Assembly: GCF_014269225.2 (NCBI RefSeq)
Contig: NZ_CP077097.1
Span: 3,421,001-3,485,000, forward strand
Direction: 5' to 3'
Source: Pseudomonas anuradhapurensis
GTDB taxonomy: Bacteria; Pseudomonadota; Gammaproteobacteria; Pseudomonadales; Pseudomonadaceae
DNA length: 64,000 nt
Shown: one piece after another, positions 30,897 through 35,055 of the stretch
Numbering within the stretch: the first letter of the stretch is position 1
Layout of the letters: the number at the start of each line of letters is the position of its first letter
Program-made: the position numbers and the translations under genes
The notes under the pieces: model-generated
The model's database searches: none
Told to the model about the DNA's origin: nothing
Seen by the model: the letters and a program-made list of their open reading frames with translations, nothing else

Positions 30897-30924
30897 ACAC
30901 CCCGCTCATGCGGGGTGTTTTTTT
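30897..30924 (+). terminator. Rho-independent terminator of the nuo operon
   Basis: Perfect 9-bp stem ACACCCCGC / GCGGGGTGT with a TCAT loop and a run of six T, 18 bases after the nuoN stop. Confidence 0.95.
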
Positions 30925-30972: not shown

Positions 30973-31236
30973 TCATTCATCAGCAGCTCCCTGAGTTACC
31001 GTCGGCAACGCCGCCCTGCGCAACTCACCATTGGCCGAAGGCAGGTAAACTTCCGGGTTGGGCATGCCGCTGGGTGAGAGTTCGTGGGTCATTTCGAATT
31101 CGGCACGCACTGACCAGCCACACGCCTCGGTTGTGCATTGCAAATAGGCAATGCGCAGGAAAATATGGCGCCCTTCGCTGGTGCGTATGCGCATCCGGCT
31201 GTGGCAATGCGGGCAAACCAGCTTGTAGGTACTCAC
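30973..31236 (-). CDS. Ogr/Delta-like zinc-binding phage activator
   Basis: 87 residues. Cys8-x2-Cys11 and Cys34-x4-Cys39 with the surrounding YKLVCPHCHSRMRIRTSEG and ACGWSV reproduce the Ogr/Delta family, which in P2-like phages switches on late genes through the RNA polymerase alpha subunit. The C-terminal ELSPSGMPNPEVYLP is also Ogr-like. GTG at 31236 is chosen because AGGTA lies about 7 bases upstream; a TTG at 31251 is in frame but lacks a site. In P2, ogr lies at the end of the late region; here it is stranded beside nuoN. Confidence 0.8.
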   Translation of the reverse strand: MSTYKLVCPHCHSRMRIRTSEGRHIFLRIAYLQCTTEACGWSVRAEFEMTHELSPSGMPNPEVYLPSANGELRRAALPTVTQGAADE

Positions 31237-31247
31237 GGCAAGTACCT
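31227..31247. promoter_or_regulatory. Inverted repeat over the ogr-like start codon
   Basis: AGGTACT - 7 bases - AGTACCT, a perfect 7-bp inverted repeat; its centre holds the GTG start codon. It could be an operator or a hairpin that hides the ribosome site. Confidence 0.3.
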
Positions 31248-31275
31248 GCAAGCATGATTCACCGCCAGGCTCTCT

Positions 31276-31328
31276 AAGAATAATCGTTCAGCTGTGTCAG
31301 TATTGGCTGCAAAGTTGAGATTATTCTT
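31276..31328. promoter_or_regulatory. Spaced inverted repeat in the ogr-CI divergent region
   Basis: AAGAATAATC at 31276-31285 and its exact complement GATTATTCTT at 31319-31328, 33 bases apart, in an A/T-rich 200-bp spacer between the divergent ogr-like and CI-like genes. This placement suits repressor operators, but no experimental site is known to me. Confidence 0.4.
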
Positions 31329-31436
31329 CAGTTCAATGTTTCTCATTGCAGAAATGCTCCTTAAAATGCAGGGCTGTATTCATAACGAGTAGTTTAAGCC
31401 CATGGAATATCTTTAAACCAGTCATGGATATCTGTT

Positions 31437-31817
31437 ATGAGTACTCATGTACTTGCTGCAGTGCTCACCCGCCTCAAGCTTCTGACCGGCGCCAAGACCG
31501 ATGCCGAGCTCTCGCGCAAGCTGTCGATCAGCCCGCAGACCCTGAGCAGCTGGAAGGTGCGCGACAGCATTCCCTATTCGCTGTGCGTAGACCTGGCCCG
31601 GCAACATGGTTGCTCGCTGGACTGGCTGCTGCTGGGCGAAGCCGCCCCCGTCACCACAGCCCTGGATGACGCCGACTGGGAGCAAGACGTGCTCACGCGG
31701 CTACGCACGCTAGCGCCGGCTGATCGCCAGGCCATCCTGCTGCTGATCAAGGACAAGCAACGCATCCAGCAACTGGAACAGCAATTGAATGCGCTGGCCG
31801 GATCCGCCACCGGCTAG
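31437..31817 (+). CDS. CI-like phage repressor (HTH) protein
   Basis: 126 residues. The N-terminal half (RLKLLTGAKTDAELSRKLSI then SPQTLSSWKVRDSIPYSLCV) is the Phage_CI_repr helix-turn-helix, followed by ARQHGCSLDWLLLG, typical of P2/HK022-type and tailocin repressors. The C-terminal part is a short helical tail (ADRQAILLLIKDKQRIQQLE), so there is no LexA-like peptidase domain and no obvious RecA-cleavage control. The first codons form the palindrome ATGAGTACTCAT. Its stop overlaps the holin stop by 3 shared bases. Confidence 0.8.
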   Translation: MSTHVLAAVLTRLKLLTGAKTDAELSRKLSISPQTLSSWKVRDSIPYSLCVDLARQHGCSLDWLLLGEAAPVTTALDDADWEQDVLTRLRTLAPADRQAILLLIKDKQRIQQLEQQLNALAGSATG

Positions 31818-32176
31818 CCCCGGTTCCGCCAGCGCTGGATGAGCTCGCGCGGGTCTAGTGTATCCAGCCAGACCATGACCTTGAGGCTGATCGGGATCAC
31901 CACCACCGCAGCCACGAATGCCGCCATGCCGCGTGTCAACAAGGGCGTCAGTGACGACACCAGCGGCTCGAACAAGTGGCCTACCCCGACGGTGACGAAT
32001 ACCAGCAGCAGCTTCTGGCCCAGTTTCAGGCGCCTGGCGGTATTGGTGATCAACCGGTCACGCGCCGCGCTCACCAGCAGTGCACCGAGCAGCGCAGCGA
32101 ACAGCACATCGCCATCCACTTCCAGCAACGCCACGAGCGCGGCGCACGGCGTGTCGAACAGTTCGGTTTCAGGCAT
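31814..32176 (-). CDS. Putative phage holin
   Basis: 120 residues with three hydrophobic segments (about 25-45, 55-78 and 85-110), a class I holin layout. The N terminus (MPETELFDTPCAALVALLEV) and the C-terminal LKVMVWLDTLDPRELIQRW resemble the putative holin of Pseudomonas tailocins and P2-like prophages. The ATG at 32176 has GGAGGG 7 bases upstream. It overlaps the end of the GpL-like gene by 8 bases. No endolysin gene is present beside it. Confidence 0.7.
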   Translation of the reverse strand: MPETELFDTPCAALVALLEVDGDVLFAALLGALLVSAARDRLITNTARRLKLGQKLLLVFVTVGVGHLFEPLVSSLTPLLTRGMAAFVAAVVVIPISLKVMVWLDTLDPRELIQRWRNRG

Positions 32177-32516
32177 GGTTGCGCCCTCCACGTGCAGTGG
32201 GCAAGCACGCCGTCGATCCCAGGTTGTGGCGGACCGCAGCCTCGATAAAGCGCAAGTAGCACACCCGCAATGCGCGCCCATGGTCATGCCTGGCGACATC
32301 CTCGAGGCGCTTGTAACCTCGCCTGCGCAGCACCGCTCGCCAATGGGCGAACTCGCGTGCCGCGTCGATGACCGCGCAACGGGCGGCCACTGCCAGTGCG
32401 GTTTCGCTGACCGACGGCTGCAGCAGCAGCCGCTCGCGCAGGCTGCTGAGGTCTATGCGAGGCCAGAACGGGTCATGGCTGTCGGCAAAACGTGGAAACA
32501 GAGGATCACTGCCCAT
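32169..32516 (-). CDS. GpL-like phage head-completion protein
   Basis: 115 residues. FWPRIDLSSLRERLLLQPSV then AAREFAHWRAVLRRRGYKRLEDVA and RFIEAAVRHNLG follow the pattern of P2 gpL (head completion/stabilisation). It is in the P2 order, upstream of the holin. No terminase, portal or capsid gene is nearby, so it is a leftover rather than part of a working phage. Confidence 0.65.
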   Translation of the reverse strand: MGSDPLFPRFADSHDPFWPRIDLSSLRERLLLQPSVSETALAVAARCAVIDAAREFAHWRAVLRRRGYKRLEDVARHDHGRALRVCYLRFIEAAVRHNLGSTACLPTARGGRNHA

Positions 32517-32525
32517 GTTCGCCCC

Positions 32526-32774
32526 TCACTGCTCGGCCAACATGCCGTAGCGAATGGCCTTGATCACTGCTGCCACCCGTGTGGGCACATCGAACTTGCG
32601 CAGGATGTTCGACACGTGAAAGTTCACCGTCGATTCCTTGCACGCCAGGATCTGGCCGATTTCCCAGGAACTCTTGCCGTAGGCGCACCACAACAGGACT
32701 TGCTGTTCACGTGGCGTCAGGCGAACCGGGGCGTCCGCCAGGGGGTGCTGCGAATGTCGTGCGTGGTCATTCAT
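32526..32774 (-). CDS. HTH-only LuxR-family regulator (no autoinducer domain)
   Basis: 82 residues, essentially the LuxR C-terminal domain: LTPREQQVLLWCAYGKSSWE, IGQILACKESTVNFHVSNIL and RKFDVPTRVAAVIKAI. The wording W-C-A-x-G-K-x-S-W-E-I is that of quorum-sensing LuxR proteins (LasR type), yet the N-terminal AHL-binding domain is absent. The ATG at 32774 has GGAG 8 bases upstream. It is 9 bases before the GpL-like gene and reads into it, so regulator, GpL and holin look like one transcript. It may be a truncated regulator or a working HTH solo. Confidence 0.75.
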   Translation of the reverse strand: MNDHARHSQHPLADAPVRLTPREQQVLLWCAYGKSSWEIGQILACKESTVNFHVSNILRKFDVPTRVAAVIKAIRYGMLAEQ

Positions 32775-32994
32775 GTTTGAACTCCGCAGGTGATTGACAG
32801 AGGCATCGCTGCCGGTCTGCGGCCACCTTACGAAGCGCCTGCCGTGCGGCTCCACCACTGCGGCTTGTAGCGAACTTTCGTACAAAACCACCTGGTGAAA
32901 CCTGCGGCAAATTAGCCGGATTTCTTCGTGCTTCAAGGGCAATTTCGCTCGTCTCAACGCCGTTGTCATTTGCCCTGTCACCTGGAGTCGTACC

Positions 32995-35055
32995 ATGCGT
33001 TGCGTTTTGCCCCTATCGTCCTGCCTCGGCCTGCTGGCTGCCTTGGCTGCCAACCAGCCTGCTGCAGCCTCCTCGGTCGAACTGGACCAGGTGCTGATCA
33101 CCGACGAAGAGCAGAATGACCTGAGCGCAGCCAGCGAACGCCTGCGCGAGGTGCCAGGGGCCAGTAACCTGGTGGACATGCAGCGTGCCGGACAGGGCCG
33201 GCTCGCCAGCAACCAGGACGTGCTGGCCTACCAGCCGGGGGTATTCGCCCAGTCGGCGGGCAACGATGGCATCAAGTTGTCGATCCGCGGCTCGGGCATC
33301 AACCGCGCCCCAGGGGCCCATGGCTCCGGGGTGTACACGATGTTCGACGGCCTGCCCCTGACCGGCCCGGGCGGTACCCCCTACGAACTGTTCGAGCCGC
33401 TGTGGCTGAGCCGTGCCGAAGTGCTGCGCGGCGCCAATGGCTTCGACCACGGCGCGCTGGCCCTGGGCGGAGCGCTCAACTACATCACCCACAGCGGCTA
33501 CGACGCCGCGCCGCTGCAGGTGCGCTACGAAGTCGGCAGCCGTGGCTACCAGCACCGCCAGGTCAGCTCGGGCCAGGTAGTGGGCAATCTCGACTATTAC
33601 CTGGCCTTGACCGATTCCGAATATGACGGCTACCAGGCGCACAGCAGCGGCAGTGCGAAGGGCGTTGCCGCCAACTTTGGCTACCGTTTCAACCCTGACC
33701 TGGAAACCCGCTTCTACCTGCGCTACCGGGAAACCGAGAACCAACTGCCCGGGCGCCTGACCAAGGAGCAGATCAAGCATCACCCGCGCGCTGCCAACCC
33801 GAACTACCTGGCCCGCGATGACAGCCGCCCCCAGCCGGGCAGCACCTGGCTGGGCAACAAGACCACCTTCTACCTCGACGACGATGCACGCCTGGAAGCC
33901 GGCCTGGTCTACCATGACTACCCGATGGACCTGCGCGAAGGCCCGATGCGCCTGAAGGTGGCCTACACCGATGTCAGCGGCACCCTGAACTACTTCCGCC
34001 GCGACACGCTGTTCGGCCATGACAGCAAGACCACCGTCGGCTGGCGCACCACCAAGCACCTGCCCAACAGTGGCGCTTCGCAGTTCGCGCGCACTGGCGA
34101 TATGTTCGGTGCACGCAGCCGAGACTTCACCTACCAGGGTTCGGACACCGTGGTGCATTTCGGCAACGACCTGGAGCTGGTCCCGGACCTGTGGCTGACC
34201 AGCGGCCTGGCGATGATCTACACCCGCCGCGAAAGCGCGGTCACCTACCCTGCCGAGGGCGGCAAGGTGAGCATGCATGACTGGGACTATGCACCTCGCC
34301 TGGGGCTGCGCTATGACATCCGCCCGGACTTGCAGGTGTACGGCAACCTGAGCCGCTCGGTCGAACCGCCACATCCCTGGTCGCTGATCTGGAGTGCGCC
34401 AACCGCCTACCAGCCGATCGAAATGCAGAACCAGACCGCCACCACCCTGGAACTGGGTGCGCGCGGCGATGCGGCAATAGGCCATTGGGACTTGGTCTGG
34501 TACTACGCGCAGGTCCGCCATGAACTGCTCGCCGTGGAAATCATGCAAGGCGCCCCGGCCAAGGAATTCAACGCCAGCGCCACCGTGCACCAGGGGCTGG
34601 AAGCCGGCCTCGACAGCACGCTGTGGGAACGCGCCGGGACTGGCAGGCTCAGCTTGCGCCAGGCCTACACGTTCAGTGACTTCCACTACCGCGACGACGA
34701 CCAGTTCGGCGACAACCGCCTGCCCGGCATCCCGATGCACTACTACCAGGCCGAGCTGCGCTATGACTGGCCAAGTGGCTTCTACGCGGGGGTGAATACG
34801 CAAATGGCGTCGAAGGTGCAGGTGGACTACGCCAACAGCTTCCACGCCGACGCCTATGCCTTGCTCGGCACGCGCCTTGGCTGGAATTCACCGAAACAGG
34901 ACTGGCAGACCTGGCTAGACCTGCGCAACCTGACCAACCAGCGCTATGCGGCAACGGTCACACCCGGCTACAACGATGCAGGCAAGGACGTTGCCCGCTC
35001 GACACCGGGCGAAGGGTTTGCAGTATATGCCGGGGTTTCCTACAGCTTCCGCTGA
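32995..35055 (+). CDS. TonB-dependent outer-membrane receptor (FecA-like group)
   Basis: 686 residues. A signal peptide (MRCVLPLSSCLGLLAALAAN) precedes a plug domain at about 45-165 (DVLAYQPGVFAQSAGNDGIK, then LSIRGSGINRAPGAHGSGVY) and a 22-strand barrel ending VYAGVSYSFR with the terminal aromatic. It imports a ferric chelate or similar ligand using TonB energy; ligand unknown. No clear Fur box was seen in the 220-bp upstream spacer, which holds the short palindrome CACCTGGTG at 32889-32897. It is divergent from the LuxR-HTH gene. Confidence 0.9.
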   Translation: MRCVLPLSSCLGLLAALAANQPAAASSVELDQVLITDEEQNDLSAASERLREVPGASNLVDMQRAGQGRLASNQDVLAYQPGVFAQSAGNDGIKLSIRGSGINRAPGAHGSGVYTMFDGLPLTGPGGTPYELFEPLWLSRAEVLRGANGFDHGALALGGALNYITHSGYDAAPLQVRYEVGSRGYQHRQVSSGQVVGNLDYYLALTDSEYDGYQAHSSGSAKGVAANFGYRFNPDLETRFYLRYRETENQLPGRLTKEQIKHHPRAANPNYLARDDSRPQPGSTWLGNKTTFYLDDDARLEAGLVYHDYPMDLREGPMRLKVAYTDVSGTLNYFRRDTLFGHDSKTTVGWRTTKHLPNSGASQFARTGDMFGARSRDFTYQGSDTVVHFGNDLELVPDLWLTSGLAMIYTRRESAVTYPAEGGKVSMHDWDYAPRLGLRYDIRPDLQVYGNLSRSVEPPHPWSLIWSAPTAYQPIEMQNQTATTLELGARGDAAIGHWDLVWYYAQVRHELLAVEIMQGAPAKEFNASATVHQGLEAGLDSTLWERAGTGRLSLRQAYTFSDFHYRDDDQFGDNRLPGIPMHYYQAELRYDWPSGFYAGVNTQMASKVQVDYANSFHADAYALLGTRLGWNSPKQDWQTWLDLRNLTNQRYAATVTPGYNDAGKDVARSTPGEGFAVYAGVSYSFR

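Follow-up and report, generated by a model that had tools for sequence, protein, structure and literature searches.

What are five phage-type genes, all of them intact, doing between nuoN and a TonB-dependent receptor gene of Pseudomonas anuradhapurensis, and how did they come to be there? The window analyzed here, a 64,000-nucleotide stretch of DNA from this species, holds five short intact open reading frames (ORFs) at this position, and the listings of open-access literature searches contained no description of such a cassette. Prophage parts that hosts have domesticated are familiar mainly as complete machines (tailocins) or as single genes. At this locus, a phage decision switch and a late promoter appear to have been retained together as a 1.9-kb host unit across a wide part of Pseudomonas.

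Five phage-type genes behind nuoN

The features of the cassette, in order along the window, are as follows.

30897..30924, no strand assigned: terminator-like hairpin and T run, 3' of nuoN and facing the convergent ogr; read directly from the sequence
30973..31236, minus strand: ogr, Ogr/Delta zinc-finger late-gene activator, 87 amino acids from GTG; PF04606, 61.2 bits (scored from TTG)
31377..31391, no strand assigned: candidate CI operator TATTC-N5-GAGTA, upstream of ci; motif search
31437..31817, plus strand: ci, short CI-type helix-turn-helix (HTH) repressor, divergent from ogr; Phage_CI_repr PF07022, 56.5 bits
31814..32176, minus strand: holin, 120 amino acids, same family as the holin that comes first behind gpL in Citexvirus; phrog_198, 1.9e-11
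32169..32516, minus strand: gpL, truncated head-completion protein GpL; Phage_GPL PF05926, 36.5 bits, profile positions 4-66 of 139
32526..32774, minus strand: luxR, stand-alone LuxR/GerE HTH protein, 82 amino acids; GerE PF00196, 70.5 bits, HTH only
32825..32830, minus strand: -10-like hexamer TAAGGT of the luxR promoter, inside CACCTTAC (plus strand)
32865..32885, minus strand: putative Ogr box TTGTA-N11-TACAA (equivalent to TGT-N13-ACA); motif search

The genes luxR, gpL, and holin lie head-to-tail on the minus strand, with luxR presumed to be the first gene of their common transcript, while ci converges on holin and diverges from ogr. Profile scans with Pfam and phrog upheld the five intact ORFs and the family assignments that an earlier note on this DNA had proposed, and they assigned no capsid, tail, terminase, or integrase gene between nuoN and the TonB gene and no endolysin gene within the cassette, as that note had also claimed. 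No NCBIfam model reached its cut-off for any of the five proteins. The extent of 30973..32774 drawn in the note holds for the genes and falls short at its upper limit, where a promoter with a palindrome adds 32825-32885. On the nuoN side, the hairpin is a candidate terminator and cassette boundary. The TonB-dependent receptor gene (32995-35055, plus strand), which runs divergently to luxR, scores highest in NCBIfam against PqqU, at 107.1 bits where the cut-off is 1200.

The start of ogr is probably the GTG at 31236 rather than the TTG at 31251, because a ribosome-site-like sequence, read by eye, precedes this GTG in relatives. The encoded protein carries the C4 zinc motif CX2CX22CX4C; the zinc motif of P2 Ogr is described in a passage of PMC3931495. 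In CI, only the HTH was matched by Pfam and no peptidase domain was found, so direct RecA-triggered cleavage of this repressor would not be expected. The holin yielded nothing above the cut-off in Pfam. Its phrog_198 profile match and its hydrophobic segments at about 10-40, 52-74, and 76-107 (hydropathy) mark it as a probable phage holin, with membrane permeabilization as the predicted activity. GpL is an N-terminal part rather than a full-length domain, as its profile positions indicate, and the conserved C-terminal block of phage GpL is absent when the two are aligned.

Kinship with Citexvirus phages

The P2-type phage origin suggested earlier was confirmed by matches to named phage families and by collinearity with Citexvirus. 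In Dobby (Citexvirus, Peduoviridae), the late part runs from a GpL-family head-tail adaptor through a baseplate hub, two holins, an endolysin, Rz, and tail genes to gp31, and is followed by a repressor divergent from an HTH gene, gp37, Ogr, gp39, primase, and integrase. With the exception of luxR, the cassette order gpL-holin(-holin2)-ci|ogr(-X) is collinear with this map, and gp39 belongs to phrog_3461, as does the gene after ogr in the two other types of cassette locus described below. The cassette is thus what deletions left long ago of a Citexvirus-like (phiCTX/P2-type, Peduoviridae) prophage, which lost the block that starts with the endolysin and ends with the last tail gene, the primase-to-integrase genes, and everything upstream of gpL. 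The mixture of late genes with early-control genes, which the earlier note had regarded as an oddity, no longer appears as one, since removal of the endolysin-to-tail block and the flanks would leave the two sets side by side in the phage order.

The exception, luxR, occupies a place different from that of gp31, to which its HTH is 33% identical over 45 residues. Dobby gp31 itself (L153 16947-17486) is a regulator of the LuxR type (GerE), encoded after the last tail gene and before the repressor. Searching with LuxR returned 104 relatives at E <= 1e-8, of 46-136 amino acids, and those with names come from Pseudomonas or from a compost metagenome. The CI profile picked out 35 viral contigs, of which 25 match ogr on the strand opposite ci and none matches luxR, holin, or gpL at 1e-4; a tblastn search of 50,697 phage records with GpL and the holin gave no match at 1e-5. 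Pseudomonas prophages encode Ogr proteins that share 67-86% identity with that of the window or of a cassette at another site (L080), and those of phages with names reach 49% at most (33 records). In a tree built on 77 columns, with weak support, long-branch warnings, and the G161 Ogr left out, the cassette Ogr proteins of the nuoN locus and of the two other locus types share a single clade (SH-aLRT 82) nested among those of Pseudomonas prophages, and the Ogr proteins of three further reduced units (G043, G196, and G132) group with prophages.

A tailocin remnant, the alternative named in the earlier note, is not what the locus holds. The cassette has no tail sheath or tube gene, and the one sheath match of the genome, at 1331833, lies in another cluster, a tailocin at about 1.324-1.339 Mb (L150:5895 to L151:1854) between mutS and cinA (neighbors named by eye). 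That cluster encodes its own holin (PF16085), GH19 lysin (PF00182), and Rz (PF03245), together with an S24-type repressor, and the cassette is therefore not needed as its missing lysis module. Cooperation between the two is possible; the GH19 lysin could be released by the cassette holin. A TGT-N12-ACA palindrome lies at L150:6973, some 300 bp before the tailocin holin.

Conservation of the cassette and of its control regions

The cassette was traced through the genus by way of three of its proteins. A GpL search of 199 genus genomes found a match in 44, and in 20 further genomes among these (L003-L022) the cassette genes stand in the same order, although no holin was detected in L017. Scanning GTDB genomes with the CI profile gave 124 relatives; in 50 of the best 80 of the 124, which were kept, the cassette lies after nuoN and before the TonB gene, in some cases with genes missing, and the carriers include P. 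monteilii, P. plecoglossicida, P. mosselii, P. fulva, P. japonica, and P. entomophila. The conserved gene order anticipated for relatives is therefore present. Pooling of the two sets gives 71 nuoN-type loci (60 with all five genes, 9 without gpL, and 2 without holin), in which losses of gpL and ci are under-counted because it was GpL or CI that led to these loci.

Searching these 199 genomes with Ogr instead provides a less biased sample. In the putida clade, taken as the 35 genomes with nuoN identity of at least 92% among the matches listed, ogr adjoins nuoN in 23, and in 10 (all 10 loci fetched) nuoN is followed directly by the TonB gene. Of the remaining two, G127 ends 181 bp past nuoN, and in G076 the contig ends 741 bp after nuoN, an interval that contains neither the cassette nor a TonB gene. 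Among the 23 nuoN-type genomes, all have luxR, 22 have ci, and holin and gpL occur in 21 each, the holin being absent from G193 and G170, gpL from G170 and G009, and ci from G170. The genomes examined thus show after nuoN either the cassette, a smaller form (G170, with ogr and luxR only), or nothing of it, and none shows the larger, decaying prophage that would have argued against the earlier note. The cassette is an old, stable chromosomal unit and not fresh debris.

The same unit occupies two further, lineage-specific sites. The TPM type, 27 of the best 80 CI relatives and including P. jessenii, P. mandelii, and P. lini, has luxR-holin-ci-ogr flanked by TPM-domain genes and a methyltransferase gene; in 17 of the 27 loci ci and holin are 329-352 bp apart, an interval that in L080 contains a second holin (phrog_217), and the other 10 have no such gap. 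The ung type, with two of the best 80 (P. helleri and P. saxonica), has the cassette with gpL between ung and an AbrB-family gene. One more of the best 80, from Azotobacter vinelandii (L081), matches ci only. The 199-genome set adds G172, G021, G038, G088, and G128 to the TPM type and G198, G106, and G116 to the ung type. The gene after ogr is phrog_3461 in L080 and L101, and it is matched by tblastn in 27/27 TPM-type loci of the best 80 CI relatives and in L101, L105, L168, and L197; it has no tblastn match in L166 and was not seen in nuoN-type loci. In G106 (L168 6480-6900), the ung-type luxR is frame-disrupted, or the assembly is in error, in this one case; G106 also has a related prophage on another contig.

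Four of the 199 genomes have reduced units without a recognizable luxR, and these have in common a repressor, ogr, and a holin. The G043 unit is holin-ci-ogr; in G196 and G132, a box some 220-250 bp ahead of the holin is accompanied by another repressor and ogr; and G161 has a box, a gpL-like gene, a holin of another family (phrog_126), another repressor, and ogr. Because repressors, holin families, and neighbors differ between them, the units suggest separate reductions, and they apparently arose independently.

Selection, which the earlier note had suspected from the intact frames, is evident in all five genes. Pairwise NG86 comparison of 15 putida-group loci (L002-L016), in which pairs share branches and are not independent, gave median dN/dS values of 0.095 for ogr (98 of 105 pairs usable), 0.119 for luxR (93), 0.186 for holin (101), 0.206 for ci (91), and 0.226 for gpL (85). 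No pair reached dN/dS >= 1 among the 468 usable of 525, at median dS of 0.76-1.20. All five genes are under purifying selection.

Footprinting of the regions upstream of luxR exposed the palindrome TTGTA-N11-TACAA, which is new here. All 101/101 loci (71 nuoN-, 27 TPM-, and 3 ung-type; not independent, as some species probably appear twice in the two pooled sets) carry TGT-N13-ACA in the 150 bp upstream of luxR, against a maximum of 28/101 for any other spacing between 6 and 21. The exact TTGTA-N11-TACAA is found at two places in the 5.39-Mb genome and its reversed control at none; no regulon emerges from this, as the other match, upstream of a chaC-like gene, was judged to be chance. That second occurrence is at genome position 3042689 (L148 1501-1521), about 90 bp upstream of the chaC-like gene (named by eye). 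Neither TGT-N13-ACA nor CACCTTAC is present in the 10/10 empty sites, which keep the TonB gene, and the box is present at TPM and ung loci with no TonB match following, both of which rule it out as part of the TonB gene promoter. CACCTTAC is common in nuoN-type loci, and one cassette-bearing locus (L165) has the box and not the exact CACCTTAC.

Ogr/Delta activators have their cognate box near -55, and with TAAGGT as the predicted -10, the box upstream of luxR is centered at about -57. Citexvirus-like prophages provide the closest comparison. In stretches, some of them partial, from G175, G098, G160, G026, G176 (two), G130, G041, and G028, with boxes read by position, an N13 box lies shortly upstream of 7/8 V starts and 8/9 FI starts (15/17); an N12 box occurs at none of these 17. 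The FI start of G175 and the truncated V start of G176, which have no N13 box, count against the explanation preferred below. The distance from box to -10-like sequence is alike in phage and cassette, as judged by eye from 14 phage promoters that were themselves chosen by eye. These placements make TGT-N13-ACA a candidate Ogr-binding site. A passage of PMC3931495 describes the boxes of P2 as TGT-N12-ACA, one base shorter, and the N13 spacing looks like a trait of this Pseudomonas lineage.

The region between ci and ogr carries a different signal. TA[CT][TG]C-N5-G[AC][AGC]TA is found within 130 bp upstream of ci in 83/101 loci, a frequency that is descriptive because the motif was defined on the same sequences; the control is the contrast with spacings of 1-4 and 6-11, which reach at most 1/101. 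The pattern occurs in 1/101 luxR promoters, and conversely TGTA-N11-TACA in 0/101 ci/ogr intergenic regions. The inverted repeat at 31377..31391 is thus a candidate CI operator. The 18/101 loci without the pattern as written count against the preferred explanation.

Candidate functions and known systems

On balance, we consider it probable that the cassette is a domesticated Citexvirus-like remnant in which a CI/Ogr switch and the front of a late/lysis operon drive a holin. A prophage would have been cut down long ago to these two parts. The divergent ci and ogr would share a control region with the CI operator, through which CI would keep ogr off. Once ogr is expressed, Ogr would bind the TGT-N13-ACA box and turn on the inherited late promoter, from which luxR, gpL, and holin would be co-transcribed, and the holin would permeabilize the membrane, either killing the cell or giving passage to the endolysin of the resident tailocin or to others. 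Because the box is the same as in Pseudomonas prophage late promoters, this promoter should also respond to the Ogr of a related phage, whether infecting or induced, and the cassette would in that case be a host-owned sensor of phage late gene expression. Such cross-activation has a precedent, since P4 delta and P2 ogr each promote the late genes of both elements according to a passage of PMC8628076. The benefit to the host may be that of a lysis- or defence-related device, as the earlier note had supposed. Other observations weigh against this explanation: the clean absence of the cassette from 10 putida-clade genomes; the G043 holin, upstream of which no N13 box was found; the N12 spacing of the P2 boxes; the few columns and long-branch warnings of the Ogr tree; and the Ogr identity of at most 49% reached by phages with names.

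The output might instead be LuxR. Ogr would then turn on luxR, LuxR would act on host genes elsewhere, and gpL and holin would be passengers being lost. This regulatory relay is possible but rather unlikely. It accords with the lowest dN/dS values, those of ogr and luxR, and with the presence of luxR in 23/23 nuoN-type genomes found via ogr, of which G170 keeps only ogr, luxR, the box, and CACCTTAC; the two of these 23 without a holin indicate that the holin is not always the kept output, which counts against the preferred explanation. A passenger role fits poorly, however, with a holin retained in 21/23 under purifying selection and with the G043, G196/G132, and G161 units, which have a holin and no recognizable luxR. 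As these units share repressor, ogr, and holin, we rank the holin above LuxR as the output.

An extension of the holin-driving switch to a recurrently domesticated phage-sensing suicide switch, in which Ogr of an infecting or induced Citexvirus-type phage would fire the holin early and abort phage growth, and which would have been distilled from different prophages more than once, strikes us as doubtful. PADLOC assigned no defence family to four of the proteins and gave only weak matches for the LuxR HTH (two CARF models and one homing endonuclease). Reduced units occur in 35 of the 199 genomes, prophage-type regions in 24, and both in 2, which is not a significant depletion (Fisher p = 0.26); this count covers Ogr matches at E <= 1e-12 only, and for 13 of the 24 the prophage was deduced from a phage-type GpL located at 16-27 kb from Ogr within one contig.

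It is improbable that the cassette serves immunity only, with CI blocking related incoming phages and the remainder left over. The CI HTH is conserved and comes with an operator-like repeat, and the CI proteins of three prophages (G175, G098, and G026) are 41-45% identical to that of L080. Five other prophages (G106, G130, G160, G041, and G028) have a gp35-type repressor instead, G170 lost ci yet kept ogr and luxR, and immunity leaves unexplained the selection on luxR, holin, and gpL and the box in 101/101 loci. A neutral relic, slowly decaying without function, would suit the absence from 10/35 putida-clade genomes, the loss of genes one by one, and the frame-disrupted luxR of G106, but is already disfavored and improbable given median dN/dS of 0.095-0.226 in all five genes at the dS reported above, with box spacing strictly kept.

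The cassette, with its predicted switch, has an ordinary origin, a deleted prophage, and an unusual fate, that of a conserved, promoter-complete switch, which occupies three lineage-specific sites and has comparable reduced units in other lineages. With Citexvirus/phiCTX-like phages such as Dobby it shares the Ogr, holin, and GpL families, their relative order, the divergent repressor|Ogr region, and, in related prophages, the N13 late-promoter boxes. Unlike these phages, it has no packaging, capsid, tail, endolysin, replication, or integrase genes, and hence lacks the capsid, tail, terminase, and integrase of a functional Peduoviridae prophage; unlike Dobby, it has luxR directly before gpL, a truncated GpL, and a CI of another subtype than gp35. 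R/F-type tailocins of Pseudomonas (mutS-cinA) resemble it in that phage lysis genes and a repressor have been domesticated at one fixed site of the chromosome, as set out in part of PMC2647930, which also reports that the tailocin holin PFL_1211, from another Pseudomonas element and of a family not compared with the cassette holin, is lethal upon expression in E. coli. Unlike them, the cassette has no tail genes or lysin and is separate from the tailocin cluster of its own genome. It differs from the P2-P4 helper-satellite pair in that none of its five genes is an integrase, alpha, or psu/sid gene, the P4-like satellite genes listed in a passage of PMC8628076, in that nothing suggests mobilization, and in a box of N13 rather than N12; what it has in common with that pair is an Ogr/Delta activator and a late promoter that the activator of a related phage could use.
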